From assembly GCA_029257775.1 (NCBI GenBank), contig JARIAQ010000026.1, positions 1 through 64,000 of the forward strand: 64,000 bases of DNA. Reading direction: 5' to 3'. Origin of the DNA: Blautia sp. (GTDB lineage Bacteria > Bacillota > Clostridia > Lachnospirales > Lachnospiraceae). Shown here piece by piece: positions 48,650 through 63,645 of the stretch. The notes below the pieces were generated by a model, which saw only the letters and a list, made by a program, of their open reading frames with translations, had not been told where the DNA came from and did not search any database. Position numbers and translations under genes: made by a program. Numbering within the stretch: position 1 is the first letter of the stretch; every line of letters starts with the position of its first letter.

Positions 48650-48714
48650 CTAACCCTCTCCTTTGCATTCTTTATTTTCAGAATACCATAATTTCTTTCT
48701 GAAAACAACTAAAT

Positions 48715-48765
48715 CAAAAAAGAAGAAGCATTACATTAAGCATCACTTACTGTAACACCTCTTCT
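48715..48765 (-). terminator. Terminator of the methylaspartate operon
   Basis: On the minus strand AGAAGAGGTGTTACA pairs with TGTAATGCTTCTTCT (15 bp with three G-T wobbles), followed by TTTTTT. It starts 11 bases after the last stop (48776), giving the long catabolic operon a defined end. Confidence 0.85.
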
Positions 48766-48775
48766 CTTCATTTAA

Positions 48776-49312
48776 TTATTTACATACTTCATTGTAAAGA
48801 TTTCTTCCTTTTGAATCAATAACTACAATTACAGGAAAATTCTCTACTTCTAGCTTTCTTATTGCCTCAGTTCCTAAATCCTCATAGGCAATAACTTCTG
48901 CTTTTTTAATACATTTTGACAGCAATGCACCAGCGCCTCCCACTGCTGCAAAAAATACTGCTCCATTTCTAACAATAGCTTCTGTAACTTCTGGTTTTCT
49001 TTTTCCTTTTCCTATCATACCTGTAAGCCCTAAATCTAACAGCCTTGGTGCATATTTATCCATACGGCTGGCTGTTGTCGGACCTGCAGAACCAATAACT
49101 CTGCCTTCTCTAGCAGGAGTTGGTCCCATATAATAAATAATATTATTATTTAAATCAATAGGAATCTCTTCTCCTTTATCCAAGGCCTCTGACATTCTAA
49201 GATGTGCCGCATCTCTTGCTGTATAAATTGTACCTGTAATATAAACATAATCCCCTGCCTCTAAAGATTTCACTTCTGTTTTATCAAGGGGTGCTTGCAT
49301 ATATCTGTCCAT
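48776..49312 (-). CDS. Class I fumarase/mesaconase-type hydratase, beta subunit
   Basis: This is the C-terminal half of a heterodimeric iron-sulfur hydro-lyase (fumarase/tartrate dehydratase family). The 178 residues contain PLDKTEVKSLEAGDYVYITG at the start, GPTPAREGRVIGSAGPTTASRMDKYAPRLLDLGLTGMIGKGKR near 75-118 and the VFFAAVGGAGALLSKCI region. Class I enzymes can hydrate both fumarate and mesaconate. In this operon, next to methylaspartate ammonia-lyase and citramalate lyase, mesaconate hydration to citramalate is the likely task. It follows the alpha subunit by 27 bases and is the last gene before the terminator. Confidence 0.9.
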   Translation of the reverse strand: MDRYMQAPLDKTEVKSLEAGDYVYITGTIYTARDAAHLRMSEALDKGEEIPIDLNNNIIYYMGPTPAREGRVIGSAGPTTASRMDKYAPRLLDLGLTGMIGKGKRKPEVTEAIVRNGAVFFAAVGGAGALLSKCIKKAEVIAYEDLGTEAIRKLEVENFPVIVVIDSKGRNLYNEVCK

Positions 49313-49339
49313 CTTTCATTCCTCCAAACATTTGCTCTC

Positions 49340-50185
49340 TTATATAGTTCTTGCAATATGGCGATTTACATGACAACAGATGTTTACTGCCACAGGAAGT
49401 CCTGCAATATGTGTTGCATAAGTATTGATATTAACTGCCAGTGCCGTAGTATCTCCACCTAAGCCTGCCGGACCTAAACCAATTTGATTAATTTTTTCTA
49501 ATAATTCTTCTTCCAATTCTTTAACATGAGAAAGTTCTGAATGTGTGCCAACCTCTCTTGTAAGCGCTTTTTTCGCCAAAATCGCCGCTTTTTCAAAAGT
49601 TCCTCCAATTCCCACTCCAACCACAACTGGCGGACAGGCATTCGGACCTGCTTCTTTTACTGTATTGATAATTGCTGTTTTCACGCCCTCAATACCATCT
49701 GCTGGTTTTAACATATATATTTTGCTCATGTTCTCACTTCCGAAACCTTTAGGCGCTACTGTAATTTCCACCTGATCTCCTGGTACAATCTCATAGTGGA
49801 TAATCGCTGGTGTATTATCTTTTGTATTCACACGTAACAAAGGATCTCCTACTACAGACTTTCTTAAATAACCTTCTGCATATCCCTGTCTTACCCCTTC
49901 GTTTACTGCGTCTTCTACACTTCCGCCTTCAAAATGTACCTCTTGTCCTATCTTTAGAAATACTACTGCCATTCCTGTATCCTGGCAAATTGGTATCATA
50001 TCTTCTCCTGCAATGTCTAAGTTTTCTAAAAGTTGTGCTAAAATCTGTTTTGCCAAAGGTTTGGTTTCTTTCTCATGGGCATTTTTCATAGCTTTATCCA
50101 TATCTGGTGCTAGATAGTGATTTGCCTGAATACACATTTCTTTAATATTTTCTGTTAAAAGTTTTACATCTATACTGCGAATCAT
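49340..50185 (-). CDS. Class I fumarase/mesaconase-type hydratase, alpha subunit
   Basis: This is the N-terminal half that binds the [4Fe-4S] cluster. The 281 residues have conserved cysteines in PICQDTGMAVVFLKIG near 63, AGPNACPPVVVGVGIGG near 188 and INICCHVNRH at the end. DNTPAIIHYEIVPGDQVEI lies near 125. It has a GGGAGG site before the ATG. With the beta subunit it forms a two-gene mesaconase, converting mesaconate to (S)-citramalate. Fumarase activity as well would be normal for this class. Confidence 0.9.
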   Translation of the reverse strand: MIRSIDVKLLTENIKEMCIQANHYLAPDMDKAMKNAHEKETKPLAKQILAQLLENLDIAGEDMIPICQDTGMAVVFLKIGQEVHFEGGSVEDAVNEGVRQGYAEGYLRKSVVGDPLLRVNTKDNTPAIIHYEIVPGDQVEITVAPKGFGSENMSKIYMLKPADGIEGVKTAIINTVKEAGPNACPPVVVGVGIGGTFEKAAILAKKALTREVGTHSELSHVKELEEELLEKINQIGLGPAGLGGDTTALAVNINTYATHIAGLPVAVNICCHVNRHIARTI

Positions 50186-50208
50186 GCCAACTTCCTCCCA
50201 TTTCTGCT

Positions 50209-51159
50209 CTACTTCAAATGATTCGTTAAATGCTTGCTAAGGTCAATACGATTAAAATCCTTAATATTATCGGACTGATGTTTTCCCAATAATCCAATCA
50301 GCATATAATATCCATTTCTGGGATCTTGAGGATAATCCTTAACTAAAGTAAAATCCTTAATTTTTCCGGTGCTGGAAATATGCATTCTCGGTCCTAAACA
50401 TTCCAATATATAATTCCCTATTTGTACATGATTTTCGTCATAATATGACACTGGCAAATCTTGTGCTACGGCCTCTTTTACCTTTCTCTCCAGTTCATAA
50501 ATATCCACTGATGGTTTTTCCTCAAATTCCAACACAAAGCCATGACGAACATCAGAACGGGGACCATCCTGTGCATATCCCTCTCCCATAAAATGCACAC
50601 ACAAATCTTCTAATGTATGCGCTGCTTTTCTATAAGTTACAGATTTATGTACAATTTTAGCAATATTTTCTGGAAGTGGACCAAACATATTCGGTCTTGT
50701 AATAATAATCTCTTCCCCGATTCCCACTAATAAGTCTGCATTACGTTTTAAAAATGGAAAAATCAATTCAAAGTGCTCTACAATTACCATTTTTCCGTTT
50801 TTAGCTGCTTCTAAAATGGCATCTGCAAGAACATGCATCTGTGTAAACGCAGACTCAAAGCGAATATCCAAATGATATGTATGAGGAGAAAACGGGTCTT
50901 CCAGATTTTCATGTAGTAAGGGCAACGGACGTATATTTACTCCCTCATCATCATTTGTAAGATCTATTCCTGGAAACATTCCCTTGATTAGAAGACTTTT
51001 CCCTGCACCTGCATCTCCAATGATTCCAATAATATGGTCAAAGGGACTTAAATACATCTGACTTAACTGCATCCCCAAATCAGCCATACGCCGATTTCCT
51101 CTGGGCGCAAAATAATAACTGTACAGGTTTCCATCCTGCATCTGTTTTGAATATGCCAT
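50209..51159 (-). CDS. P-loop NTPase fused to an AlaRS second-additional-domain-like region
   Basis: Residues about 1-190 form a P-loop module with Walker A GIIGDAGAGKSLL near residue 44 and a hydrophobic strand with a possible catalytic acid, GKMVIVEHFELIFPFLKRNADLLVG, near 120. Residues about 200-300 resemble the tRNA_SAD domain, ending CLGPRMHISSTGKIKDFTLV. In AlaRS and AlaX this is CxGTHxxxTGxI, so the Cys-His spacing here is longer. I recall similar proteins annotated only as 'alanine-tRNA synthetase second additional domain-containing', without a role. It sits between mal and the mesaconase subunits. Start ATG at 51159 follows AAAAAGGA; the longer frame from 51225 has no site. A maintenance factor or small-molecule kinase for the pathway is speculation. 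Confidence 0.75.
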   Translation of the reverse strand: MAYSKQMQDGNLYSYYFAPRGNRRMADLGMQLSQMYLSPFDHIIGIIGDAGAGKSLLIKGMFPGIDLTNDDEGVNIRPLPLLHENLEDPFSPHTYHLDIRFESAFTQMHVLADAILEAAKNGKMVIVEHFELIFPFLKRNADLLVGIGEEIIITRPNMFGPLPENIAKIVHKSVTYRKAAHTLEDLCVHFMGEGYAQDGPRSDVRHGFVLEFEEKPSVDIYELERKVKEAVAQDLPVSYYDENHVQIGNYILECLGPRMHISSTGKIKDFTLVKDYPQDPRNGYYMLIGLLGKHQSDNIKDFNRIDLSKHLTNHLK

Positions 51160-51260
51160 ATTTTTATTCCTTTTTATTTGCCAGAATAGCCAGTCACATT
51201 TCAGTTTTCTAAAATGTGCTGGCATATTCTTTCATCCTTATTTCCTAGTGTCCTTTATCA

Positions 51261-52508
51261 TTAATTTTTTCTTGCTTTACGAAGGGCAAGGATTCTTTCC
51301 ATTTCATTGTAGACAATCATATATCCTTCGTCAACACCCATACCAGGTTTTGCTAAAATCTGATCTGGTTTTGTAGCCATAGCACAGTTTACACATACCT
51401 GAGCTGAGCGATCTGTTTCGTTACAAGTACCACCTTGATAAGCTCCAAAACCTTTTTCTTTACAATATAATACTGCTTCTACAATATTATTGATTCCACC
51501 AAGATCTGGTGTTTTAATCTGAGCCATGTGTCCTGCCTTATTATCTGCAAAATATTTTACATCTTCTAAAGTGTTACACCATTCGTCAGCAACTAACTCT
51601 ACGTTTATACCACGTTTATCTACTTCTTCACGAAGTCCCTTTAGACAAAGCATCTGTTTTTCTCTTTCTTCTGCATCCATAGGTCCTTCAATTCTTAAAT
51701 GGAATGGTTTTGCTGCTTCTTCCAATTCTGCTAAATAATCTGCCATTGCAGAGTAATTATCTACGCCAAAAATTGCACCAATTGTTCCATATACATCAAT
51801 ATGAAATACAGGCATATAATTTTCATCATTGCGAAGTTTCTGTACTCGCTGGCTTAACCACTGTACATATTCTTTTAAAAGTTCTCCCTTTTCGCCCAAT
51901 TTTAATTTTACATTATTGATTAATGCATGAGGCATAACAGCAGCACCTTTTAAAATCATCTTATCTGCATTGTCATAACGATTATCACCAGACTGTGTAA
52001 AGACTGGAATCGGTTCTTCAGAAACAGTTGTTCCGTATTCGTCAGCTACAACTTCGCACATTAATCTCTTGCTGGATTTTGCAACTGCATCCAGAATTGC
52101 CTGGCTTACACCATAACGAATTGCAGTATGTAGTCTCTTTCCATCTACCTGAATGTTTTCCAACATTTCACATAAACCTTTAAAGCTGTCTGCTTCTTTT
52201 CCTACTAATTCTGGTTTGATATATTTATCAATAATTGGAATAAAATCTTCTGCTAAAAACAATGGATCACGACCACCTGCTCCTGAATACTGAACTGCAG
52301 CACAATCTCCCCATGCAATCTGTCCGTCCTCTAAGATTAACATAACGGAAATTGCCTCTCCTGCCTGTCTTACGGATTTAAATCCTGGTGTAACAGTTTC
52401 GCCAAAATAAGCTGATCCATCAGCTACTGCACCTTTTTTAATTGCTCTTTGATCATCAAAGAAAAATCCAGTTCTTGCTTTAGAACAAACAACATCTATT
52501 ATTTTCAT
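51261..52508 (-). CDS. mal: Methylaspartate ammonia-lyase
   Basis: It eliminates ammonia from (2S,3S)-3-methylaspartate to give mesaconate. This enolase-superfamily enzyme has 415 residues, the usual length. Recognisable pieces are KARTGFFFDDQRAIKKGA at residue 9, the SGAGGRDPLF loop near 73, metal-ligand regions HIDVYGTIG near 232, RIEGPMDAEE near 267 and LVADEWCNT near 301, and the base lysine in MAQIKTPDLGG near 327. CNETDRSAQVCV follows. The start ATG at 52508 has AAGGAGA eight bases upstream. It follows glmE and precedes the P-loop gene. Confidence 0.96.
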   Translation of the reverse strand: MKIIDVVCSKARTGFFFDDQRAIKKGAVADGSAYFGETVTPGFKSVRQAGEAISVMLILEDGQIAWGDCAAVQYSGAGGRDPLFLAEDFIPIIDKYIKPELVGKEADSFKGLCEMLENIQVDGKRLHTAIRYGVSQAILDAVAKSSKRLMCEVVADEYGTTVSEEPIPVFTQSGDNRYDNADKMILKGAAVMPHALINNVKLKLGEKGELLKEYVQWLSQRVQKLRNDENYMPVFHIDVYGTIGAIFGVDNYSAMADYLAELEEAAKPFHLRIEGPMDAEEREKQMLCLKGLREEVDKRGINVELVADEWCNTLEDVKYFADNKAGHMAQIKTPDLGGINNIVEAVLYCKEKGFGAYQGGTCNETDRSAQVCVNCAMATKPDQILAKPGMGVDEGYMIVYNEMERILALRKARKN

Positions 52509-52564
52509 GATACACTTCTCCTTAAACATTTATAATAATTTTTTATATGCTGTTGTCTTTCTTT

Positions 52565-54013
52565 TTATTTAGGCTTTCCAACAAGTCTTCCTTTACTGAT
52601 AGCATATACATCATCAATTACCATCTGGAAAGAAGCTTTTCTCTTTTCCAGTTTTGCACGATGTTCAATTTTACTTCTATTAAAATCAACCAGCTCTTGT
52701 GGCAATGGTACATTTGCTACGTTCAGGTAACGAACTGCGCCTTCATTGTCTCGTGCTGGAAGCATCTTTCCAAAGTTATAACGGCTTGGTGCAAATGGAA
52801 TATCAATAACACCGGCTTTTACTGCACGAATAACACCAAGTGCCAAATCTCCCATACCAAGTTCAAAACATTTATCTACTATAGCACATGTTTCACCTTT
52901 AATAATTGCTTTTTCAAGTTCAAGAGCAGAACTCTTTAATTCCTGATCTGCCAACAAAGAAATTGCCTGCTTTGTACAACGAAGTCCCTGTGCATTTGCT
53001 TCCATAGTTGGAACACCCATTGCTTCATGAGGTGTTTTTACAATTACTTTGGTCGCTTTTGCAAGTGCTGCTACAGAACTTCCCCAGGAGATAACAGCAA
53101 AAGCTTTTGCCTCGTCCTGTGGAAATCCTCCCATCCACTGATGAAGAACAGATGTAACTGTAACATCTTCATATCCATATTTTTCCAGATACTCTTCTGT
53201 CAGTTCTTCCAGAACACGTAAAGCTGCAACGTCTTGTACTAAATTACCGCACTGTCCATAACCAACTGTTACATTTTTTACTCCCTGCTCTGCTGCCAGC
53301 AATGCTTCAATAATTGCAACTGCATTTGACATAGAAGGTGGTACTAAAGTGCCAGTCAATGGTCCATAAGGTTCACGGTTAATGGAAACACCAGCTTCTT
53401 CATAAATACCTGTCAATCGGTCTACATATTGCCAATCATAAATTGTTCTCTCAAGAGGAACATCCTTTGCATAAGGAATATTATAAGAAATTCCACCGCC
53501 TTCATAGCTGGTAAACCCACCTGCATAACAAATTTCTGTCAGCAGTCTGGCATCTGGAGTACCGTGACGCACCTGTACCGGAGTATCCAGATTTTCAATA
53601 ATTTGACGGCATCCATATACACCATGGTTTACAGCTGGAAAACCATTTAACATAGATTTTTGTGTATGAATAGATTCTTTAATTCCAACTTCTGCTTCCT
53701 CATAACGATTCTGACGTGTATAGGAATCAATCGTTGTAGGAAGTAAATCTGCTTCACCTTTATCCTGTAAATACTGTAAAAGTTTAATATGTTCGTCAAT
53801 CAATGCTACACCAGCTCTTGGCTGAATTAAAGTTTTTCTTTCTTTTTTTGCCTGTGCCAGTTTTCTAGAAAAACTTTTTGTTTCAGGCATATTTTTATGA
53901 TATTCTACCGCTTCATCAAAATCAACATCTTTTCCAGTTGACCACTGTCCTAAAATCTCATTTCGAATACCATAAAACTCATCATCCGATAACTTTTTAT
54001 TTCTTATGTCCAT
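52565..54013 (-). CDS. glmE: Methylaspartate (glutamate) mutase epsilon subunit
   Basis: This is the large catalytic subunit of the adenosylcobalamin-dependent glutamate mutase that converts L-glutamate to (2S,3S)-3-methylaspartate. The 482 residues contain [21 protein letters not shown] near residue 26, [21 protein letters not shown] near 66, [31 protein letters not shown] near 147-177 and [18 protein letters not shown] near 310. These match GlmE, which forms the TIM barrel with the substrate site. The start overlaps glmL by 17 bases and has GGAGA nine bases before the ATG. It needs GlmS for B12 binding. Confidence 0.96.
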
Positions 54014-55385
54014 AATAAGCAATCTCCTTCTTCATAATTTCCAAAGCAGCTGCCGGGTAATGCTGTGAAAGCAGTCCCATTGCTGCAAGGATATATTTTC
54101 TATCCACCAGGATTTCCGCATTCTCCGGGCGCAAAGAGCCAGGAGTGCTCTCATCATACAGTGCATATTTTGCAATTTCTTCTGTATGTTTTGCGTGTAT
54201 TAAAGCTCCACCAGTAACAACTACATATTTTACCCTACGAAGATCCTTGCCACTTTGTAAATATGTCAAACCACATGGTGTATAAACCTGTTCCAAGAAA
54301 CCTGCATGACGTGCCACAGCAGTTTCTACCGCTGCACATGCCAGTGCATAATCCATTTTTTCCATTTCCTCATTGTCAGGAATATAATCTGTATGGTTTC
54401 CCAGATACTCTACTAGTTCACTTACTTTCTGGCGATTTATACCAGCTATTTTAGAAAGTCGTCTGTCACCTACTGCTTCCAAAATTCCGTGTACACTATA
54501 GCGCATACCAATGTCGCCTTCCACACTTCTTTTTGCATAAGGTTCCTGAATTCCTTTCATAACCGTTGCCATATTCACTGGACTTCCTTCTGCTATAGAA
54601 TAGATGTCAGTAGTCGCTCCTCCTAAATCCACACCTACCAACTCTCCGATTCCTGAATGTTCCTCCCATCCATCTGATAAAAGTTCCATTGCTGTAAGCA
54701 TAGCAGACGGTGTAGGCATTATAATTCCAGATACTAAATCTGATGCTTCTGAAAGTCCTTTTCCCTGCACAATTCTCTTCAAGAAGATTTCTCGAATTTG
54801 TTTCTGCGTTGGTTCTATATTTAATTCACCAAGCCTTGGCATTACATTTTCGCAAAGAAATGTGGTTCTTCCCTCCAGAATTTCCTCACATTCCTCTGCA
54901 GCACAGCGATTTCCCGCAATAACAATAGGACAATCGTAGCTAAGAGAGGCTAACATCTGTGCATTATACAAAATACACTCAGAATTTCCTCCATCCGTTC
55001 CTCCTGTAAGCAAAATAATATCTGGATGATATTCTTCGATTTCCCGCATGTCTCCTTTTGTCAGATTAAATGAATATGTTTTCCATACTTTTGCACCTGC
55101 GCCAAGAGAAGCTTCTCTGGATGCCTGAGCAGTCAGCTCTGGTACCAGTCCGATAGAAATCATTTTCAGTCCTCCGGCAGCACTAGAACAAGCATATCTT
55201 TCTTCATATTCAATATGACCTGTTATTTTTTCCAAATTGGAAACTGCCTCTCGAAGACCATTATTAATATCTGTTTCTACGGTTGTATACGCTGCTGCTG
55301 TTCCAAGAACCTCACAGCTTTCTACATCAACTGCTGTCACCTTTGTGTTGGTGCTTCCGAAGTCCACCAATAAAATTGGTTTCAT
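53997..55385 (-). CDS. glmL: GlmL (MutL) ASKHA-type ATPase of the glutamate mutase operon
   Basis: A 462-residue member of the ASKHA fold (actin/hexokinase/Hsp70-like). The phosphate-binding motif [16 protein letters not shown] is at residue 5, [18 protein letters not shown] near 260 and the adenosine motif [11 protein letters not shown] near 402. GlmL accompanies glmS and glmE in methylaspartate operons and is not required for catalysis in vitro. A reactivating chaperone role, as for diol dehydratase reactivases, is proposed but not settled. The ATG at 55385 follows GAGGTGGTGA. Overlap with glmE implies coupled translation. Confidence 0.93.
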
Positions 55386-55405
55386 TTCAATCACCACCTC
55401 ATCTT

Positions 55406-55837
55406 TTATTCTGCTGTTTCTGGAACTTCGATGCCAAAATCTTCATATAAAGCTTTAATAGTTGTTTCTGGTGCTGTACCTGGGCCAAATACTCTATCAA
55501 ACCCCATAGCCTTAAAACGTTTTTCTACTTCGTCAAAAGGCTGCTTACCAACTACAATATTTCCGCCTACATAGAGTAAAATACCCTTTAGTCCAGCCTC
55601 ATCACACTTTTCTCTTAAACCTCTACAATCCAGTTCTCCATGTCCATACAAAGAGGATACCATGATTCCGTCAGCTCCTGTTTCAATTGCTGCTGAAATA
55701 TATTCCTCCTGTGAAACCATAACTCCTAGATTTGTTACTTCAAATCCGGCATCTTCAAATGCATGCTGAAGAATACTAATTCCAACTGCATGTACATCTG
55801 CACCGATTACACCAATGACCAATTTCTTTTTGTCCAT
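55406..55837 (-). CDS. glmS: Methylaspartate (glutamate) mutase sigma subunit
   Basis: The 143-residue B12-binding subunit. The cobalamin motif DxHxxG is present as GADVHAVG near residue 13, with its histidine as the lower cobalt ligand. [14 protein letters not shown] near 61 and the GG region [11 protein letters not shown] near 88 complete the B12 domain. The length is standard. It has a GAAGGGAG site and lies 20 bases before glmL, directly after citF. Together with GlmE it forms the active mutase. Confidence 0.96.
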
Positions 55838-55889
55838 TGTAAAACCGCTCCCTTCCGATTTCTTGATTAAATGGCTTTATTTTATACTT

Positions 55890-57293
55890 TTACAGTACAT
55901 TTTTAATGGTATCAAGCAAAGTCCCATCACGATAGAGCACTTTTGCTACAACCTTATCCCCTGTTTTTATTTTATTTGGAACACCCGAGATGTCCTCTGC
56001 TATCTGTTTCAATTCTTCAATATCTTTTACCGGAAGTCCGGCTTTTAATAATTTCTCTTTCAACTCTTTTTGCCTTGGATTTACTGCAATTCCCCGTTGA
56101 GTCACAATAACATCCACAGTCTGACCCGGTGTTGATTTGCAAAGCACTTCATCTACAATAAGAGGAAGTCTTGCACGAATTAAAGGTGCTACAATAATTG
56201 CCAGTTTGGATCCTGCAGCTGTATCACAGTGTCCACCGGAACCTCCCATAATAAATCCATTGGAATCTGTATGTACATTAACATTAAAGTTTACATCCAC
56301 CTGCGTTGCACCTAAGATAACCACATCCAGACTGTCTACTGCTGCACTTTTTGCTGTTGGTGATGCATATCGCATAGCAGAAATTTCTTGATGTTTGGGA
56401 TTTTCCCGAATAGATTCGATGGCTTTCAAATCAAAACACTGTACATCCAAAATTGTATCAAAATATCCTTTATTTGCCATATCTACCATATATCCGGTAA
56501 TACCGCCCATACAAAAGCTACCTTTTATATTTTCTTTTTCCATCATTTCTTCCACATACTTGGCTACTGCCAAAGATGCACCGCCGGCACCTGTCTGGAA
56601 AGAAAATCCGTCCTTTAAATATCCAGAATGTTTTACCACCTGTGCTGCCAACCCTGCAATTCGAAGCCCCACTGGGTCACGGGTGATTTTAGTTGTTCCT
56701 GACACAATACGTGTAGGATCACCAATCTGAGGCACTTCCACTACATAATCTACATATCCCTCACTGATGGAGGTATCTTTTAATGGATAAGGCACCAAAT
56801 TATCGGTAAGTACAACCACCTTATCTGCATGCATAGCATCAGAAAAGGCATAGCCCAAGGAACCACAAGCAGATGGTCCATATTTCCCACTGCAATTTCC
56901 CATGTTATCTGCACAAGGAGCTGCCAGAAAAGCAATATCAATTTTAGAAGATCCGTTTTCCATATCTCCGGCTCTACCTCCATGACTTCTGAAAATCACA
57001 GGTTTTTCTAATATTCCCTGAGAAATCGCTTTTCCTACCTTTCCTCCCATATAATTGCATTCAAGACCTGTTACTACACCGTTTTTTATATGTTGGATAA
57101 TCGGTTCATGAATATCAAAAATAGAGCTAGCATTTACTGTTAAATCTTTAATCCCCATTTCAGCAGCTTGTTCCAGAACCATATTCAGAACAAAATCTCC
57201 ATTTCTCATATGATGATGAAAGGAAATTGTCATTCCATCTTTTAATCCTGTCTTTTCAATAGCTTCCCTTACGGAAGAAATCAATTTACTCAT
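55890..57293 (-). CDS. citF: Citrate/citramalate lyase alpha subunit (CoA-transferase)
   Basis: The 467-residue alpha subunit exchanges the acetyl group on the acyl carrier protein for citrate or citramalate. Visible motifs are MTISFHHHMRNGDFVLN near residue 21, FRSHGGRAGDMENG near 100, FLAAPCADNMGNCSGKYGPSACGSLGYAFSDA near 120-150 and GGSGGHCDTAAGSKLAII near 345. These match CitF. The start overlaps the citE stop by four bases, with GGAGG nine bases before the ATG. In this operon, directly upstream of glmS, the substrate is most likely citramalate, giving acetate and pyruvate. Confidence 0.93.
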   Translation of the reverse strand: MSKLISSVREAIEKTGLKDGMTISFHHHMRNGDFVLNMVLEQAAEMGIKDLTVNASSIFDIHEPIIQHIKNGVVTGLECNYMGGKVGKAISQGILEKPVIFRSHGGRAGDMENGSSKIDIAFLAAPCADNMGNCSGKYGPSACGSLGYAFSDAMHADKVVVLTDNLVPYPLKDTSISEGYVDYVVEVPQIGDPTRIVSGTTKITRDPVGLRIAGLAAQVVKHSGYLKDGFSFQTGAGGASLAVAKYVEEMMEKENIKGSFCMGGITGYMVDMANKGYFDTILDVQCFDLKAIESIRENPKHQEISAMRYASPTAKSAAVDSLDVVILGATQVDVNFNVNVHTDSNGFIMGGSGGHCDTAAGSKLAIIVAPLIRARLPLIVDEVLCKSTPGQTVDVIVTQRGIAVNPRQKELKEKLLKAGLPVKDIEELKQIAEDISGVPNKIKTGDKVVAKVLYRDGTLLDTIKNVL

Positions 57294-58165
57294 TTGCATG
57301 CACCTCCATAAATTGCCTTTTCCATTTCCAGTACCTGTTGGGCACGTTTTACAATCGGTGCATCAATCATCTTTCCTCTCAGAGAAATTACCCCTTTTCC
57401 CTGACGTTTGCCATTTTCAATAGCATCCATTACATCATGAGCATATTCTATTTCACTTTCAGTAGGAGAAAATACTGCATTAACAATATCTACATGTCTT
57501 GGAGAAATAACTGCTTTTCCTGCAAATCCCAGACTTTTTGCAAATTCTGTATCTTTCTCCAGTCCTTCCATATCTTCCACATCTGTAAAAGGTGTATCAT
57601 AAGCTTCAATTCCACAGGCTCTAGCAGCACATACCAGACGGGTTCTGGCATAGAAAATTTCTTTTCCCTCTTTTGTACGTTTACAATGCATATCCGCTGT
57701 AAAATCTTCTCCTCCTAAGAAAAGTCCAATTACTCGCTTATCTGCACTTGCAATTTCAAAAGATTTTTCTACACCCAAAGCAGTTTCAATAAGCGGAAGA
57801 ATTTTAACACTTCCTTCTTCCATCCCATTTTCCTTTTCTACCTGAGCCATAAATTCTGACACTTGACAAATCATTTCTTTACCACTGACCTTGGTAGGCA
57901 TAATCACATCTGGTTTTAAAGGAATAATTGCTTTTAAGTCTTCTTTCCAGAACTCTGTATCTGTGGGATTAATTCTTACCACTACTTCACAATTAGGAAA
58001 AGACTGGTACTTTAGCGCATTTTTCACTAAAATCCTTGCTGCATCCTTTTCATCTGGTGATACGGCATCCTCTAAATCAAAAATAATCGTATCTGCTCCC
58101 AGTGTATCACCATTAATCAGCATATTCGGAGTGTTTCCTGGTAAAAACAACATTGTTCGTCTCAT
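57290..58165 (-). CDS. citE: Citrate/citramalate lyase beta subunit
   Basis: The beta subunit cleaves the acyl-ACP intermediate to acetyl-ACP and an oxoacid, which is pyruvate if the substrate is citramalyl. The 291 residues begin RRTMLFLPGNTPNML and have DTIIFDLEDAVSPDEKDAAR near 25, VVVRINPTDTEFWKEDL near 58 and the metal and arginine residues of LGGEDFTADMHCKRTKEG near 147. This is the CitE TIM-barrel lyase family. It starts two bases after citD and overlaps citF by four bases, typical of citDEF operons. Confidence 0.93.
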   Translation of the reverse strand: MRRTMLFLPGNTPNMLINGDTLGADTIIFDLEDAVSPDEKDAARILVKNALKYQSFPNCEVVVRINPTDTEFWKEDLKAIIPLKPDVIMPTKVSGKEMICQVSEFMAQVEKENGMEEGSVKILPLIETALGVEKSFEIASADKRVIGLFLGGEDFTADMHCKRTKEGKEIFYARTRLVCAARACGIEAYDTPFTDVEDMEGLEKDTEFAKSLGFAGKAVISPRHVDIVNAVFSPTESEIEYAHDVMDAIENGKRQGKGVISLRGKMIDAPIVKRAQQVLEMEKAIYGGACK

Positions 58166-58167
58166 AC

Positions 58168-58434
58168 CTATTCAACTCCCCCTCTTTTCAGTGCAGTTTC
58201 CATACGCGCACGAATAACGCAGTCCAATGCACCTTTATCTTTAATAAATATTTTTCCTGTGGATACGTCAAATTCTTTCAATGTATCCAAAACAGTAGTC
58301 CGAATGGCATCCATATACTGATTTGCAACAACGGAGTCAATTTCCAAAGTTAATTCCTTTTCATCTGGTTCTATCTGAATAAACAAATCACTGGATTCCA
58401 GAGTTCCTGCTACTGCATTTTTTAAAATTTTCAC
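58168..58434 (-). CDS. citD: Citrate/citramalate lyase gamma subunit (acyl carrier protein)
   Basis: The 88-residue acyl carrier protein carries the 2'-(5''-triphosphoribosyl)-3'-dephospho-CoA cofactor. The attachment serine lies in the conserved NAVAGTLESSDLFIQIEP near residue 13. The end, DKGALDCVIRARMETAL, is also family-typical. The GTG start has GGAG seven bases upstream. It is the first of three lyase genes. The cofactor-building enzymes and the acetylating ligase are not in this window. Confidence 0.93.
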   Translation of the reverse strand: MKILKNAVAGTLESSDLFIQIEPDEKELTLEIDSVVANQYMDAIRTTVLDTLKEFDVSTGKIFIKDKGALDCVIRARMETALKRGGVE

Positions 58435-58455
58435 AGGTTTTCTCCTTTCATCGTC

Positions 58456-59088
58456 TTACTCTACCACACTTTTTGAAACTCCAGCCTGTGCCAGAATTTT
58501 CTGCTCAAAAGCAATCGCTTTTTTCTCCAATACTTCTACTTCTTTAGAAGTCTCTTTTACGAACTCTTCATCTTTAATTGATTCCAAGTTAATCTTCACA
58601 TTAAATAACGCACCTAAAACTGCTGTCCTTGCCATCATGGTTGCTACCAAAGCATCTGTAACTGCTGTTTTATTTCCTTTTACCACCATAGTTTCTGCAA
58701 AAGGGAGAACTTCATAAGCTGCTTTTGCTACAGATAAAGGTACTGCAACAGCTGCTTTTAAGCCATTCTGCATAGCAGCTGTACGTGCTGCCTTTTCTTC
58801 TTCTGTTTCCTTTGGAAGTGTTAAAGCTTGCATATATAAATCAAAAGACTCACTGTCTCTTTTAATATCATCTAAAAGCTGTTCACAAATTTTGTGCATT
58901 GGTTCAACAGCTTCTTTCATTTCATCTTCTACTTCGATATATTTCTTTTTTCCTATTGTCAGTCCTGCCACCATCTCTGTTAAAGCTGCTGCTAAAGCGC
59001 CAGCGAGGGCGGAAATACTTCCGCCCCCTGGTACTGGTTCATTAGAGGCTGTCTGCATGGCGAACTGTTCAATTGTCATCTGTTTCAT
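58456..59088 (-). CDS. fchA: Formiminotetrahydrofolate cyclodeaminase
   Basis: It converts 5-formimino-tetrahydrofolate to 5,10-methenyl-tetrahydrofolate and ammonia. The 210-residue all-helical protein starts MTIEQFAMQTASNEPVPGGGSISALAGALAAALTEMVAGLT, the folate-binding signature of the FTCD C-terminal domain and of free-standing FchA. It is separate from ftcD here, as in other anaerobes, whereas mammals have a fusion. It supplies one-carbon units from the histidine ring to the folate pool, ready for ATP-yielding formate release. Confidence 0.93.
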   Translation of the reverse strand: MKQMTIEQFAMQTASNEPVPGGGSISALAGALAAALTEMVAGLTIGKKKYIEVEDEMKEAVEPMHKICEQLLDDIKRDSESFDLYMQALTLPKETEEEKAARTAAMQNGLKAAVAVPLSVAKAAYEVLPFAETMVVKGNKTAVTDALVATMMARTAVLGALFNVKINLESIKDEEFVKETSKEVEVLEKKAIAFEQKILAQAGVSKSVVE

Positions 59089-59155
59089 GGCATATACCTC
59101 TTATTCATATTTTTCAAACACCGGAAATACAATACTTTCCATTTTTTCACTATTT

Positions 59156-60049
59156 TTACAATCTTGTTTCAAGAACCTGTTTTGGATCAAAGTTTTCAAA
59201 ACCAAGATAATATTCTGTACAGTCAACAATAGCCTGTAAAGGAATCAAGCCTACTACTTCACTGCCTAATACATTTACACCATAACGTCTAGCTTCCATA
59301 CGTACTGTTTCAAAAACTGTATAAACGGACGTTTTCGTATAATCTGTCAAGTTCATAGATACCTGAGCAATATTTCTATCTTCTAACATAACACCCATTG
59401 CTTTACAATAACGGAAACCACCTTTTACGTGACGGATTTTATCCGCAATTTTCTGAGCAATTTCCAGATTTGATGTATCTAGATTAATGTTATACGCAAT
59501 TAAAGGCATTCTTGCTCCAATTGCTGTAACTCCGCCTGTTGGATGAATTGTGTTAGGTCCAAAATCAGGTTTCCATTTTTCTTGATCTTTCATCTTCTCT
59601 GCCATACCTTCAAACTGTCCTTGACGAACTTTTGCAAGGTTCTCTCTGTGAGGAGCTGTCGCAGATTTTTCATATAAGAAGAATGGCTGTCCAAATTTTT
59701 CAGAAGCTTCTTTTGCAACAGCTTTTGCTAAAGCATCTGCATCTTCTACTGTGACACCGCGAATTGGAATAAACGGAACAACATCAACACAACCCATACG
59801 AGGATGCTGTCCTTGATGTTTTGTCATATCAATTAATTCAACTGCTTTTCCGATTGCTGCAACCATAGCATCTTTTAATGGTTCTGGCTCACCGATTACT
59901 GTTACAACACTTCTGTTATGATCTTCGTCAGAACTGTAATCAAGAAGCTTTACACCTTCTACATTACGAAAACAACCTACAATTTGTTCAATTTTTTCTT
60001 TGTCTCTACCTTCGCTGAAATTAGGTACGCATTCAATAATTCTTTCCAT
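59156..60049 (-). CDS. ftcD: Glutamate formimidoyltransferase
   Basis: It moves the formimino group of formiminoglutamate to tetrahydrofolate, giving glutamate. The 297 residues show ECVPNFSEGRDKEKIEQI at residue 5, the catalytic-histidine segment TKHQGQHPRMGCVDVVPFIPI near 77-97, GPNTIHPTGGVTAIGARMPLIAYN near 160 and GLIPLQAIVDCTEYYL near 268. It follows hutI by 18 bases, with an AAAGGAGAA site. Its product glutamate is the substrate of the glm mutase downstream. Confidence 0.94.
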   Translation of the reverse strand: MERIIECVPNFSEGRDKEKIEQIVGCFRNVEGVKLLDYSSDEDHNRSVVTVIGEPEPLKDAMVAAIGKAVELIDMTKHQGQHPRMGCVDVVPFIPIRGVTVEDADALAKAVAKEASEKFGQPFFLYEKSATAPHRENLAKVRQGQFEGMAEKMKDQEKWKPDFGPNTIHPTGGVTAIGARMPLIAYNINLDTSNLEIAQKIADKIRHVKGGFRYCKAMGVMLEDRNIAQVSMNLTDYTKTSVYTVFETVRMEARRYGVNVLGSEVVGLIPLQAIVDCTEYYLGFENFDPKQVLETRL

Positions 60050-60067
60050 GGTTTCATTCTCCTTTTC

Positions 60068-61324
60068 TTATTTCCAGTCTTTGTGGTATACGGTTTCACC
60101 TTTTTTGATAACAGTTTCTACTAAATTTATACCTGTATGATATGGCATAAAATGAATAGATGGGAATTTCAAGAAAATAATATCCGCCTGTTTTCCCGCT
60201 TCCAGACTTCCCACTGTATCAGCTCTATCCACTGCTGCTGCCCCATTAATAGTTAGTGCTGTGATCACTTCTTCAATGGACATATTCATGTAAATGCAGC
60301 CAAGCGCTACCAATAACGGAATGGAATTGGTAAAGCAGCTTCCGGGATTTAAATCAGAGGCAATTGCCACTGCGCATCCTTCATCAATCATTTTTCTTCC
60401 TGGTGCATATTCTTCTTTCAAACAAAATGCAGTTGCCGGAAGTAAGGTACTAATAACTCCTGCATCTCTCATTTGATGAATCCCTTCATCAGACGCTTTC
60501 AAAAGATGGTCGGCGGACACAGCACCTACTCTTGACGCAAGTTCTGCTCCACCTAACTGATAAATCTCATCAGCATGGATTTTCAGCTTGAATCCCATTT
60601 CTTTTGCTTTTGTGAGGTAATATTCGGAGTCTTCTATGCTAAATACATTTTTTTCTGTAAAAATATCAGCAAATTCTGCAAGATTTTCTTCTTTCACTTT
60701 TGGCATAACAACCTGAAGCTGTTCCTCTAAAAATTCTCTTTCTCTTCCTTTCCATTCTGGAAGTACACTGTGAGGTCCTAAAAAAGTTCTTACAATATCT
60801 ACTGCGTGAGTTTCATCCAGTTTCTTCATGGCACGAAGCTGTTTTAATTCTGTTTCACAATCCATACCATATCCGCTTTTGCCTTCTACGGTAGTTACAC
60901 CAAATTCCAACATGCGGTTTAATCTTTCTTTTCCTGCTTCGATTAATTCTTCCTCTGTTGCTTCTCTAGTAGGAACAACCGTTGCATTAATTCCGCCGCC
61001 TCGTTCCATAATGGACATATAACTGTCACCTTTTAATCTCCATGAAAATTCATCTGCTCTGTATCCGCCGAAAATAAAATGTGTATGAGAATCTACAAAT
61101 CCCGGCATAACTGTTTTTCCTGAGGCGTCAATCACCTCATACTCTTCTATCTTGATCTGTTTATCCAGTTCCTCGGTAGTTCCTACTGCAACAATTTTAT
61201 CATCATGAATCAAAACTGCACCATCTTTAATAATGCCTACGTCTGACATTTCTTTTCCATGCTTTGGTGCATTCCCTTTACAGGTTACTAACTCAGAAGC
61301 ATGACGTATATATCTTTTTTTCAT
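60068..61324 (-). CDS. hutI: Imidazolonepropionase
   Basis: It hydrolyses 4-imidazolone-5-propionate to N-formimino-L-glutamate, third step of histidine degradation. This amidohydrolase has 418 residues. The metal motif FVDSHTHFIFGGYRADEF is near residue 77, EGKSGYGMDCETELK near 148 and the metal histidine and acid in LKIHADEIYQLGGAELA near 240. ASDLNPGSCFTNSIP follows near 323. The start has CAAGGAGATAGAAC before the ATG. An intergenic hairpin separates it from hutU. Confidence 0.96.
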   Translation of the reverse strand: MKKRYIRHASELVTCKGNAPKHGKEMSDVGIIKDGAVLIHDDKIVAVGTTEELDKQIKIEEYEVIDASGKTVMPGFVDSHTHFIFGGYRADEFSWRLKGDSYMSIMERGGGINATVVPTREATEEELIEAGKERLNRMLEFGVTTVEGKSGYGMDCETELKQLRAMKKLDETHAVDIVRTFLGPHSVLPEWKGREREFLEEQLQVVMPKVKEENLAEFADIFTEKNVFSIEDSEYYLTKAKEMGFKLKIHADEIYQLGGAELASRVGAVSADHLLKASDEGIHQMRDAGVISTLLPATAFCLKEEYAPGRKMIDEGCAVAIASDLNPGSCFTNSIPLLVALGCIYMNMSIEEVITALTINGAAAVDRADTVGSLEAGKQADIIFLKFPSIHFMPYHTGINLVETVIKKGETVYHKDWK

Positions 61325-61354
61325 GTTCTATCTCCTTGTGACTGCTTAATAGGG

Positions 61355-61388
61355 TTTCAGGCACCGATTTTGCGGTGCCCGTCCCTGA
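61355..61388 (-). other. Hairpin between hutU and hutI
   Basis: GGCACCG pairs with CGGTGCC around a six-base loop, with flanking TTTCAGG/CCTGAAA extending the stem across a small bulge. There is no T-run, so it is not a standard terminator. It may stabilise or process the mRNA. Confidence 0.6.
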
Positions 61389-61405
61389 AAATTCAAGATA
61401 ATCTT

Positions 61406-63451
61406 TTAGTGATGTGTATGATGATGTTCTTCTACAACAACATCCTTGCACACTCTTTCAATCAGCTCATCGCTTGCCAGATAAGGCATAGTTACATAAT
61501 CTTCACCATTTCTGATTTTATTGTATTCTGCTACAGTTTCAATAGAATGTTCACATCTTCCCCAGCTTCTTCTAGAAACACCAATCATAGTATCCCATGG
61601 AATTGCTGCGTTCAAAATTTCATCCACTCTTTCACTTCCATCAAGAACCATACCAAATCCACCATTGATAGATTTACTGATACCTACACCACCACCATTA
61701 TGAAGAGCAACAAGGCTCATTCCTCTTGCTGCATTACCAGCATAGCAGTGTACTGCCATATCTGCTGTAATATTGGATCCGTCATAAATATTGGATGTTT
61801 CTCTATATGGTGAATCTGTTCCACCTGTATCATGATGGTCACGACCTAACATAACAGGTCCGATTTCTCCATTTCTTACCATTTCATTAAACTTAAGTGC
61901 AATGTCACGTCTACCAAGAGCATCTTGATAAAGAATACGACACTGTGTACCAACAACCAGTTTATTCTTTTCTGCATCACGAATCCAGATGTAGTTATCT
62001 CTATCCTGACTTCTTCTGTTTGGATCAATAATTTCCATAGCAGCGTGGTCTGTTTTTCTTAAATCTTCTGGTTTTCCAGACAGACAACACCATCTAAATG
62101 GTCCATATCCATAGTCAAATAATTCTGGTCCCAAAATATCTTCTACATAAGATGGGAAAATAAATCCTTCACTTGTATCTACACCATTCTTAGCGATATC
62201 TTTTGCTCCTGCATCAAATACAGCTTTCATAAATGCATTACCATAGTCAAAGAAGTATGCTCCTCTTTCTACTAAAGTTTTGATTAAGTGATAATGCTTA
62301 ATCAAGGACTGGTCTACTAATTCACAGAATTTATCTTTGTCATTAGCTAGCATTTCTGTTCTTTCTTCGAAAGTTAATCCCTGTGGGCAATAACCTCCAT
62401 CATAAGGAACATGACAAGATGTCTGGTCTGACAGTAATTCAATCTTCACATTATGATCCACTGCATACTGTAACAAATCCACAATATTTCCATGGTATGC
62501 AATAGAAATTGTTTCTTTCTTATCCATGTATTCCTGAGCAACCTTAAATGCCTCTGCAGCATCTTCAATTACAAGGCTAACCCAACCCTGATCATGTCTT
62601 GTTTTAATTCTAGAGTAATCAACCTCAGCAACGATACCTACACCGCCTGCAATTTCAATAGCTTTTGGCTGAGCTCCACTCATACCACCTAATCCACTTG
62701 TCACAAATAAATGGCCTGCTAAATCACCGTCTTGAGGCACACCTAAGAATTTACGACCTGCGTTGAGAATTGTATTAAATGTACCATGTACAATACCCTG
62801 TGGTCCAATGTACATCCAGCCACCAGCTGTCATCTGACCATATGAAGAGCATCCCATAGCCGTTGCTTTTGCCCAATCTTCTGGATTATCAAACATACCA
62901 ACCATAAGTCCATTTGTTACAATAACTCTTGGACTTGTTTCATGAGATTTAAAAAGTCCCATTGGATGTCCACTCATCATAACCAATGTATGATGATGTG
63001 TTAATTTTTCAAGATATTTTTTAATTAACTGATACTGCATCCAGTTCTGGCAAACCTGTCCAGTTTCACCATATGTAACCAATTCATAAGGATAAAGAGC
63101 AACTTCATGATCTAGATTGTTATCAATCATAACCTGAAAAGCTTTACCTTCTACACATTCACCTTTATACTCATCGATTGGTTTTCCATAAATTCTTTCT
63201 TTTGGCATAAAACGATATCCGTAGATACGTCCGCGTGTTAATAACTCGTCTAGGAATTCCGGTGCCAATTGTTCATGCAGTTCTTCTGGTACATATCTTA
63301 AGGCATTGGCTACTGCCAGTTTGATTTCTCTTTTATTTAATGTCAGTTCTCTTTTTGGAGCTCTTCTGACACCTTCTTTAAATGTTGGATACTCCGGTAA
63401 TACCGCATCTAATTTAATTACCATTGCATTTCCGATCTCTGCATTGTTCAT
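61406..63451 (-). CDS. hutU: Urocanate hydratase (long form)
   Basis: It hydrates urocanate to imidazolonepropionate using tightly bound NAD+ as electrophile. At 681 residues it is the longer clostridial-type form rather than the roughly 555-residue Bacillus form. Conserved regions include YGQMTAGGWMYIGPQGIVHGTFNTILNAGR near 205-235, HLFVTSGLGGMSGAQPKA near 248, QTSCHVPYDGGYCPQGLTFEER near 342 and LHNGGGVGISKSINGGFG near 598. The protein ends with a histidine-rich tail (EEHHHTHH), which is unusual. It has an AAAGGAGAG site and is the first gene of the catabolic block. Confidence 0.95.
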   Translation of the reverse strand: MNNAEIGNAMVIKLDAVLPEYPTFKEGVRRAPKRELTLNKREIKLAVANALRYVPEELHEQLAPEFLDELLTRGRIYGYRFMPKERIYGKPIDEYKGECVEGKAFQVMIDNNLDHEVALYPYELVTYGETGQVCQNWMQYQLIKKYLEKLTHHHTLVMMSGHPMGLFKSHETSPRVIVTNGLMVGMFDNPEDWAKATAMGCSSYGQMTAGGWMYIGPQGIVHGTFNTILNAGRKFLGVPQDGDLAGHLFVTSGLGGMSGAQPKAIEIAGGVGIVAEVDYSRIKTRHDQGWVSLVIEDAAEAFKVAQEYMDKKETISIAYHGNIVDLLQYAVDHNVKIELLSDQTSCHVPYDGGYCPQGLTFEERTEMLANDKDKFCELVDQSLIKHYHLIKTLVERGAYFFDYGNAFMKAVFDAGAKDIAKNGVDTSEGFIFPSYVEDILGPELFDYGYGPFRWCCLSGKPEDLRKTDHAAMEIIDPNRRSQDRDNYIWIRDAEKNKLVVGTQCRILYQDALGRRDIALKFNEMVRNGEIGPVMLGRDHHDTGGTDSPYRETSNIYDGSNITADMAVHCYAGNAARGMSLVALHNGGGVGISKSINGGFGMVLDGSERVDEILNAAIPWDTMIGVSRRSWGRCEHSIETVAEYNKIRNGEDYVTMPYLASDELIERVCKDVVVEEHHHTHH

Positions 63452-63479: not shown

Positions 63480-63488
63480 ATTGTATCA
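63480..63488 (-). promoter_or_regulatory. Possible extended -10 promoter of the hut-glm block
   Basis: On the minus strand TGATACAAT (63488-63480) provides a TGN extended -10 about 30 bases upstream of the hutU start. No good -35 is evident. A transcript from here could cover the whole 15-kb block, which has no clear internal terminator. Confidence 0.4.
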
Positions 63489-63606
63489 CCATTACAGTCT
63501 AAAAAACGTCTATTTTTCCCTCTTTTTCTTGATACCCCAAGTTTTTTTTATATATTTTAACTAATTTCCCCCTTCTATTCTAGTATGGTAAAGTAAAAAT
63601 GCACTA

Positions 63607-63639
63607 AAGAATCCCCATAGTACTCCTATGAGGATTCTT
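63607..63639 (-). terminator. Hairpin after the partial gene at the window end
   Basis: On the minus strand AAGAATCCTCATAG pairs with CTATGGGGATTCTT (one wobble) around a five-base loop. The following T-run is poor (TAGTGCATTTTT), so it may be a weak terminator. Confidence 0.6.
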
Positions 63640-63645
63640 CCATTT

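Follow-up and report, generated by a model that had tools for sequence, protein, structure and literature searches.

A Blautia gene unit joining urocanate breakdown to the methylaspartate pathway, and its candidate shared switch with histidase

Fermentation of histidine through glutamate and methylaspartate is stated for Clostridium tetanomorphum in the text available from PMC8473912, and according to the text of a 2026 preprint (PMC13320830) Blautia coccoides converts 13C6-histidine to 13C5-glutamate and 13C2-acetate and grows on urocanate. The preprint also predicts an oxidative histidine pathway in 169 gut species from the presence of hutH, hutU and mal or gcdA, and describes a reductive route to imidazole propionate, a disease-linked metabolite; in the gut this route competes with histidine fermentation to acetate. 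A methylaspartate gene cluster has been named for B. hansenii (PMC4682846), and the published view ties the methylaspartate pathway to soil and the hydroxyglutarate one to the gut (PMC8473912). The pathway from histidine to acetate is itself already known and is not new here. Described below is a block of fourteen genes within a 64,000-nucleotide stretch of a Blautia sp. genome (contig JARIAQ010000026.1, positions 1 to 64,000; this whole stretch is called the window), which runs from urocanate to glutamate and on through a complete methylaspartate pathway. With a probability of roughly three in four, the block is read from its sequence as a Blautia histidine-fermentation operon whose methylaspartate genes would be co-induced with the histidase gene hutH by a shared promoter element and a SARP-type regulator. 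The new leads are this putative shared switch of hutH and the 14-gene unit, and an uncharacterised P-loop helper protein encoded within the unit.

The fourteen open reading frames (ORFs) at 48776-63451 all lie on the minus strand, with intergenic distances of -26 to 81 bases as the ORFs were mechanically called (Table 1), on contig C38 of a 2.23 Mb host genome, G000 (G, C, L and f numbers are handles of this analysis for genomes, contigs, loci and families). Most of the encoded families score above curated cut-offs, and the content proposed for the block in an earlier note made from the letters alone, fourteen genes with small gaps or overlaps that cover urocanate to glutamate and the full methylaspartate pathway, was borne out by NCBIfam and Pfam models, with citE and the cyclodeaminase falling under their NCBIfam cut-offs. 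For citE, a score of this kind is as might be expected for a citramalate lyase. The gene that had been labelled fchA would be better called formimidoyl-tetrahydrofolate (THF) cyclodeaminase, because the FchA cut-off is missed and this FTCD_C protein is encoded beside ftcD. The models TIGR00722 and TIGR00723 cannot separate fumarase from mesaconase activity. GlmE of the window shares 99% identity with its counterpart in Blautia sp. Marseille-P3201T and 96% with the one in B. hansenii MSK.15.26, and it keeps the residues that are taken here to contact substrate and coenzyme.

Table 1. Genes, promoter element and boundary hairpins of the 14-gene unit (positions in the window)
Feature	Position	Strand	Evidence
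Terminator-like hairpin of the upstream gene, 5' boundary	63600..63645	-	15-pair stem, z -6.8, 0/200 shuffles as stable
Shared promoter/operator element GACGTTTTTTAGAC-N11-TACAAT	63480..63510	-	Lies 28 bases ahead of the start of hutU; also found upstream of hutH on contig C7
hutU, urocanate hydratase, 681 aa	61406..63451	-	TIGR01228 above cut-off; Pfam Urocanase N, core and C domains; Urocanase_N match from residue 88
hutI, imidazolonepropionase	60068..61324	-	TIGR01224 above cut-off
ftcD, glutamate formimidoyltransferase	59156..60049	-	TIGR02024 above cut-off
Formimidoyl-THF cyclodeaminase (FTCD_C family)	58456..59088	-	PF04961 231.5 bits against 24.5; NCBIfam FchA 189.7 against 275, below cut-off
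citD, acyl carrier protein of citramalate lyase	58168..58434	-	TIGR01608 above cut-off
citE, beta subunit of citramalate lyase (probable substrate)	57290..58165	-	TIGR01588 end to end, 333 bits, under the citrate-lyase equivalog cut-off of 443
citF, alpha subunit of citramalate lyase	55890..57299	-	TIGR01584 above cut-off
glmS, B12-binding subunit of glutamate mutase	55406..55837	-	TIGR01501 and NF002612 above cut-off
glmL, mutase accessory (reactivation) protein	53997..55397	-	NF040745 above cut-off
glmE, catalytic subunit of glutamate mutase	52565..54022	-	TIGR01503 above cut-off; end-to-end alignment with PDB 6h9e
mal, methylaspartate ammonia-lyase	51261..52529	-	TIGR01502 605 bits against cut-off 286
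P-loop plus SAD-like protein, 315 aa, uncharacterised	50209..51156 (ORF reaches 51225)	-	Walker A G-x4-GKS; co-distribution with glmE
Mesaconase (class I fumarase family) alpha subunit	49340..50185	-	TIGR00722 and NF004885 above cut-off
Mesaconase (class I fumarase family) beta subunit	48776..49312	-	TIGR00723 and NF005310 above cut-off
Terminator-like hairpin, 3' boundary	48700..48772	-	Long stem then T-rich tail, z -5.8, 0/200 shuffles as stable

The order of the fourteen genes is intact in all 13 genus genomes in which the stretch was examined (the window's own genome, G023, G317 and ten more). The joining of two modules that, according to the earlier note, are usually described separately is to that extent real, but the pairing as such is no news, the physiological link having long been known in C. 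tetanomorphum (PMC8473912). When the same order was surveyed elsewhere, as had been proposed, the Hut genes were found so placed at 8 of 80 glmE loci (L004-L011, from Blautia, Lachnospiraceae or Firmicutes). Missing Hut genes at the other loci are weak evidence, since L012 breaks off at citD and many further glmE loci are short; of the eight, L006, L010 and L011 are themselves truncated at contig ends. Within f1, the family of the window and presumably Lachnospiraceae, glmE is rare, scoring above the cut-off in 5 of 347 genomes once a single sub-cut-off row (G201) had been dropped. Four of these five (G000, G023, G317 and G126) carry the join, which in G126 is visible from glmE to hutU only, where the contig ends. 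A second kind of Hut-methylaspartate joining is found in family f37, where the three genomes examined, of the eight with glmE, all have hutU and glmS close together on one strand, with hutU directly before glmS in G448 (L192), about 7 kb off in G412 (L129, L191) and about 12 kb off in G570 (L193); the joining is therefore conserved in Blautia but not unique to it. At three loci (L007, L008 and L009) an extra 0.9 kb separates glmE from mal; that of L009, the only one translated, has no long open frame and gives self-repeating translations, which suggests a repeat insertion inside the operon.

Both ends of the block are marked by terminator-like hairpins (Table 1), and the remaining minus-strand matches of a terminator scan within the block are all weak and all intragenic. 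The scan covered loops of 3-8 bases, a limit that made it miss the hairpin at 48700, which was recognised by eye, so others may escape it as well. Together with the small gaps, the boundary hairpins would fit a single transcript that spans the block from hutU through the gene for the mesaconase beta subunit, without being proof of it. An RNA regulator of the unit was considered and rejected, as Rfam at the gathering threshold gave 0 matches over the window, L002 and L003.

Histidase had been noted as missing, which is correct for the block but not for the genome: hutH lies at L003:6882-8417 on contig C7 and scores 657 bits against the TIGR01225 cut-off of 539, and the proposed genome search for folate-formate genes likewise returned fhs. 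Alignment of upstream regions places one element, with the consensus GACG-N-TTTTT-W-GAC-N10/11-TAnAAT, before both hutH and hutU in the same orientation. A loose form of it, sought in 138 sequences (2.29 Mb, overlaps included), matches solely upstream of hutU or hutH. Across 20 genus genomes, the pattern GACGNTNTTTNGACN{9,12}TANNAT gave 37 matches, all 37 upstream of hutH or hutU, as compared to one match for the reversed pattern used as a control. The pattern had been derived from the hutU promoters of G000, G023, G317, G750, G751 and G755 and the hutH promoters of G000, G023, G317 and G126; 14 of the 20 genomes were unseen when it was built, and all 20 are related. Thirty-six matches sit 28-38 bases from a gene start, and the remaining one, the hutU site of G317, was placed by the upstream-region alignment and the loose-form search. 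A hutH site is present in every one of the 20 genomes and a hutU site in 16 (17 sites, G748 having two contigs). A third GAC stands 10 or 11 bases further upstream at 17 of 21 hutH sites and 2 of 17 hutU sites; the 11-base spacing of the first two GACs is fixed by the pattern, and the third lies outside it. At L010 the hutU promoter fits the loose pattern only, at a distance of about 120 bases from hutU. The idea that hutH and hutU have no more in common than a 10-mer on opposite strands was rejected: relatives place the hutH start later (L003:6882), and the element then has the same orientation at both genes.

Directly upstream of hutH, all 20 genus genomes carry a gene related to the BTAD-AAA-TPR protein of the window's own genome (many partial, the stretch being short); the other 19 were identified solely as tblastn relatives of the own copy. 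This own copy matches BTAD (PF03704, 57.2 bits against 22.1, E 3.3e-15) and AAA_16 (E 9.3e-15), and it weakly resembles AfsR, a SARP regulator (E 9e-10, far under the cut-off of that model). Its N-terminus reads, presumably, like an OmpR-type winged helix, and Pfam gave no DNA-binding domain in the protein with matches sought up to E 10. Because the SARP-type gene stands upstream of hutH and 11-bp GAC repeats lie near a -10 box, we infer that this protein activates both the hutH and hutU promoters. With the one element before both hutH and hutU and a SARP-type gene before hutH, the methylaspartate genes seem to belong to a histidine regulon. Known SARP operators are built of heptamer direct repeats with 4-base (or 3-base) spacers, giving an 11-bp period, according to the text of PMC5930380.

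A rival reading, possible rather than probable, takes the element for an unusual core promoter, or for the footprint of some different regulator, and not for a SARP site. It gains from the missing Pfam DNA-binding domain, from an element that measures just 14 bases from GAC to GAC, and from G126, a genome of another genus, which carries the element upstream of hutH and has no adjoining SARP gene. It is opposed by the SARP gene adjoining hutH in 20 of 20 genus genomes and by the direct repeats just upstream of the -10 box, three at most hutH sites, as in SARP and SARP-LAL operators (PMC5930380).

If the block is a histidine-fermentation operon, as preferred here, histidase encoded on contig C7 would make urocanate, and the 14-gene unit would carry it through imidazolonepropionate and formiminoglutamate to glutamate and a folate-borne one-carbon (C1) unit. 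Glutamate would then be converted, by way of methylaspartate, mesaconate and citramalate, into acetate and pyruvate. The unit would be made as one transcript from the shared-element promoter, and the SARP-type regulator, with its BTAD, AAA and TPR parts, would bind the 11-bp direct GAC repeats and switch on both transcripts, so that the methylaspartate genes would be co-induced with histidine breakdown. The earlier suggestion that histidine serves as a glutamate source for fermentation agrees with 13C tracing in B. coccoides (PMC13320830) and with the element shared by hutH and hutU. Co-induction with histidine breakdown is claimed and a use of the pathway for histidine alone is not, because B. 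coccoides prefers glutamate (PMC13320830). In O. symbiosa, according to the text of the same preprint, glutamate represses hutHUI and not the genes of the hydroxyglutarate pathway; Blautia cannot copy this control through the hutU promoter alone, because its Hut and methylaspartate genes lie in one unit.

The P-loop protein of the unit most likely starts at 51156, which gives a 104-base gap to mal, because similarity begins there and relatives such as L010 and L055 have an in-frame stop just before that point. A Walker A motif, G-x4-GKS, and a C-x-G-P-R-x-H stretch are found in the 35 aligned members, with the G before PR in at least 90% of them. At E up to 0.1, weak matches to tRNA_SAD appear in 26 of the 35 members and to TsaE in 23, the best member reaching E 7.7e-4 and 1.3e-4, respectively. 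At E 0.001 the window protein itself matches nothing in Pfam or NCBIfam, and it stays under the Pfam gathering scores (TsaE 15.8 against 26.6 bits, tRNA_SAD 12.9 against 24). Nothing significant was returned by PDB searches with the family profile (best E 0.022) or with the C-terminal half of the family (best E 0.031; threonyl-tRNA synthetase (ThrRS) E 0.15), or by PHROGs (best E 0.11). Towards the C-terminus the protein has a stretch that is like the ThrRS SAD domain, and its C-x-GPR-x-H..STG residues are taken here to resemble a ThrRS motif.

The P-loop gene is present at 43 of 80 glmE loci, and among 398 phylum genomes all 72 strong carriers also have glmE or a GlmE-like gene, while none of the 311 genomes lacking glmE carries a strong copy and 15 of 87 glmE-positive genomes are without it. 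In 68 of the 72 carriers it is on the same contig as glmE, and in 55 within 10 kb. These counts use thresholds set after the lists were seen: E < 1e-40 for glmE (87 of 90 kept; G397, G512 and G665 were dropped and hence count among the 311) and E < 1e-20 for the P-loop gene (72 of 77 kept; the dropped G351, a broken copy, G362, G386, G474 and G585 are none of them on the glmE list). A Fisher value calculated from these counts takes no account of relatedness and should not be read as a probability. In the f1 sample, after weak rows G070 and G133 were dropped, strong copies occur in five genomes, the same five that have glmE above the cut-off. Ten genomes have a GlmE-like gene, which the P-loop gene adjoins in six genomes of family f31 and approaches within 0.2, 1.2, 3 and 13 kb in G416, G431, G394 and G376. 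None of the ten has glmS above the cut-off, weaker B12-binding matches being present, and no mal, citDEF or fumAB match was found in the nine whose stretch was examined (G587 entered by coordinates only). The residues presumed to form the GlmE active site are lost in f31, in G394 and largely in G431, and mostly kept in G416 and G376. That the gene accompanies GlmE-like genes without mal, citDEF or fumAB suggests that the P-loop protein works with GlmE-type proteins and not with mesaconase or citramalate lyase; in the window it would be an ATP-dependent partner of the GlmE mutase subunit.

A role of the protein with mesaconase or citramalate lyase, or as a general enzyme, instead of with glutamate mutase is unlikely. 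Such a role would suit the position of the gene between mal and the mesaconase genes and its absence from 15 of 87 glmE genomes, some of them with complete glmS-glmL-glmE-mal-citDEF clusters (L103, L107, L109 and L111), so that the protein is not essential to the mutase; in the ten genomes where the neighbour is a GlmE-like gene with no glmS at the cut-off, the partner may be no B12 mutase at all. It fits poorly with the same ten genomes, in which the gene adjoins the GlmE-like gene or stands no more than 13 kb from it and the nine examined have no mal, citDEF or fumAB match, and with the 311 phylum genomes that have neither glmE nor a strong copy. The preferred reading can be widened tentatively, at somewhat less than even odds: an activator of the STAND/SARP type beside hutH would sense histidine or urocanate and drive hutH together with the 14-gene operon, and with the P-loop/SAD protein an ATPase family so far undescribed would receive its first named case. 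Members of this family would work with GlmE-type barrels, helping as an additional partner to activate or repair B12-dependent glutamate mutase and, in deep lineages with no recognised glmS, taking part in a second GlmE-based activity.

Further occurrences of the family were seen. At L090, L091, L092, L093, L094, L096, L099 and L125, a GlmE-like gene and the P-loop gene are adjacent or within about 3 kb, with no glmS or mal nearby; genes resembling rph, rdgB and a YfcE-type phosphodiesterase come next at L091, L093 and L094 (names from reading, not from a family search), and an Asp/Glu racemase gene lies upstream at L125. The window's own genome has a second P-loop/SAD copy (L089:1838-2791, contig C47), in which Walker A G-x4-GKS is kept and the TNDD and HTYH stretches are changed. 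Immediately upstream of this copy, a SufBC-like gene pair encodes a SufB/D-core protein and an ABC-type ATPase. Second copies are also present in G023 and G317.

That the block is a positional join of modules regulated and used separately, for example by way of a promoter inside the block ahead of cit or glm, with the methylaspartate half serving general glutamate fermentation, is improbable: the glutamate appetite of B. coccoides (PMC13320830), the glmE clusters elsewhere, most of which (many cut by contig ends) are without Hut genes, and promoter-like sites inside the block at chance rate would all accommodate it, but the order intact in 13 of 13 genus genomes, strong hairpins seen at the two ends only, the one element common to hutH and hutU, and the other arrangement in f37 speak for a functional unit. 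Several observations nevertheless weigh against the histidine-fermentation operon, among them the missing DNA-binding domain and the SARP-less G126 given above. No hutU site was found by the genus pattern in 4 of the 20 genus genomes (G741, G749, G753 and G756, the last rated 100% complete). The citE score lies under the citrate-lyase cut-off, and the substrate of CitE is a presumed one. Promoter-like matches inside the block number 51, as compared to 49.5 in shuffles, a count that speaks neither for nor against internal promoters. According to the text of PMC13320830, B. coccoides uses added glutamate efficiently, prefers it, and then takes less histidine. Should the glutamate repression of O. 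symbiosa hold in Blautia too, a common transcript would silence glutamate use along with Hut, and room has to be left for an internal promoter, a basal level of expression, or control at the level of hutH or of uptake.

Several pathway genes stand outside the block. A transporter gene of the Na+/H+ antiporter family, with no NCBIfam model above cut-off, follows directly after hutH; this is presumably the family of the histidine permease YuiF. Genes of the histidase family (PF00221) are also present in G023, G317 and G126, and PF00221 is absent from G139, a glmE carrier without a Hut match in the 19.9 kb examined. Just beyond the window, about 5 kb past hutU, hutD lies on the minus strand (C38:68642-69217), followed on the plus strand by citC and a fused citX-citG (C38:69306-71800), the genes expected to make citramalate lyase active. 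The citC gene scores above its cut-off and the citX part above its NCBIfam cut-off; the citG part reaches 250 bits against 272 in NCBIfam, and both parts exceed their Pfam cut-offs. Between hutU and hutD (L002:3647-7416, C38:63646-67415), a DUF6612 protein and a large transglutaminase-like protein are encoded on the same strand, apparently outside the pathway. In G744, a distant histidase-like gene (L178, about position 1500; 28% identity) lies on the same strand just downstream of the operon's last gene.

The genome has one nearly complete copy of fhs plus pieces at contig ends, and the acetyl-CoA synthase marker PF03598 is present in 5 of 5 family genomes, this one among them. Since fhs and PF03598 both occur, both C1 fates are possible, and methenyl-THF could give formate and ATP or enter acetogenesis. 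A search for acyl-CoA dehydrogenase (PF00441) gave no match in any of the five family genomes, while 9 of 14 controls were positive. By established stoichiometry, three histidines would yield 6 electrons from pyruvate oxidation, enough to take one methenyl-THF and CO2 to acetyl-CoA; the remaining two C1 units would leave as formate with ATP, balancing the fermentation without butyrate. The electrons from pyruvate would in this way be disposed of without butyrate, partly by the entry of a C1 unit into acetogenesis. Contigs C6 and C7 of the genome both start with an fhs end piece, hutH being about 6.6 kb from that break, which suggests that fhs is repeated and that the repeat broke the assembly.

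The promoter element and its candidate regulator offer a direct handle on when Blautia takes the route to acetate, and they sharpen the question of how a cell that prefers glutamate keeps its glutamate enzymes on if their promoter is common with Hut. That the uncharacterised P-loop family goes with glmE suggests that a piece of GlmE and glutamate mutase biology is still missing. Eighteen of the 80 glmE loci have record titles naming an animal gut or forestomach site, which weakens the view of methylaspartate as a soil pathway and hydroxyglutarate as the gut one (PMC8473912). Neither the shared element, nor the joined unit, nor the SARP-type neighbour of hutH, nor the P-loop protein, on this account an undescribed family, was found described in the open-access literature searched, supplements and figures being outside its scope.

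Compared with the tRNA_SAD (ThrRS N2-like) and TsaE-like P-loop families, the helper protein is related by weak matches in members of its family, the window protein lying under both gathering scores and having no NCBIfam match. SARP and SARP-LAL activators such as PimR of Streptomyces (PMC5930380) have in common with the Blautia candidate a SARP domain joined to an ATP-binding part and 11-bp direct repeats in the target promoter. The Blautia candidate would, in contrast to those described there, control amino-acid catabolism in Bacillota, with a GAC core instead of CGGCAAG and with binding as a prediction only. C. tetanomorphum, studied by Barker, shares the course from histidine through glutamate to methylaspartate, but its route ends in butyrate (PMC8473912), whereas no acyl-CoA dehydrogenase PF00441 was found in the five family genomes. 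The oxidative histidine pathway of PMC13320830 is the same Hut and methylaspartate route, traced with 13C in the congener B. coccoides; its main text does not use the terms operon, gene cluster or promoter, treats gene organisation only for hutH with urdA or hutUI, and gives no Hut-methylaspartate unit or regulator. The methylaspartate clusters of Clostridia such as C. tetanomorphum and C. tetani (PMC4682846) have glmS, glmL, glmE, mal, a two-subunit mesaconase, citDEF and citCXG in common with Blautia. While the legend of Fig. 4 in that paper lists no Hut genes and no P-loop protein, in Blautia hutU, hutI, ftcD and the cyclodeaminase gene head the same unit.

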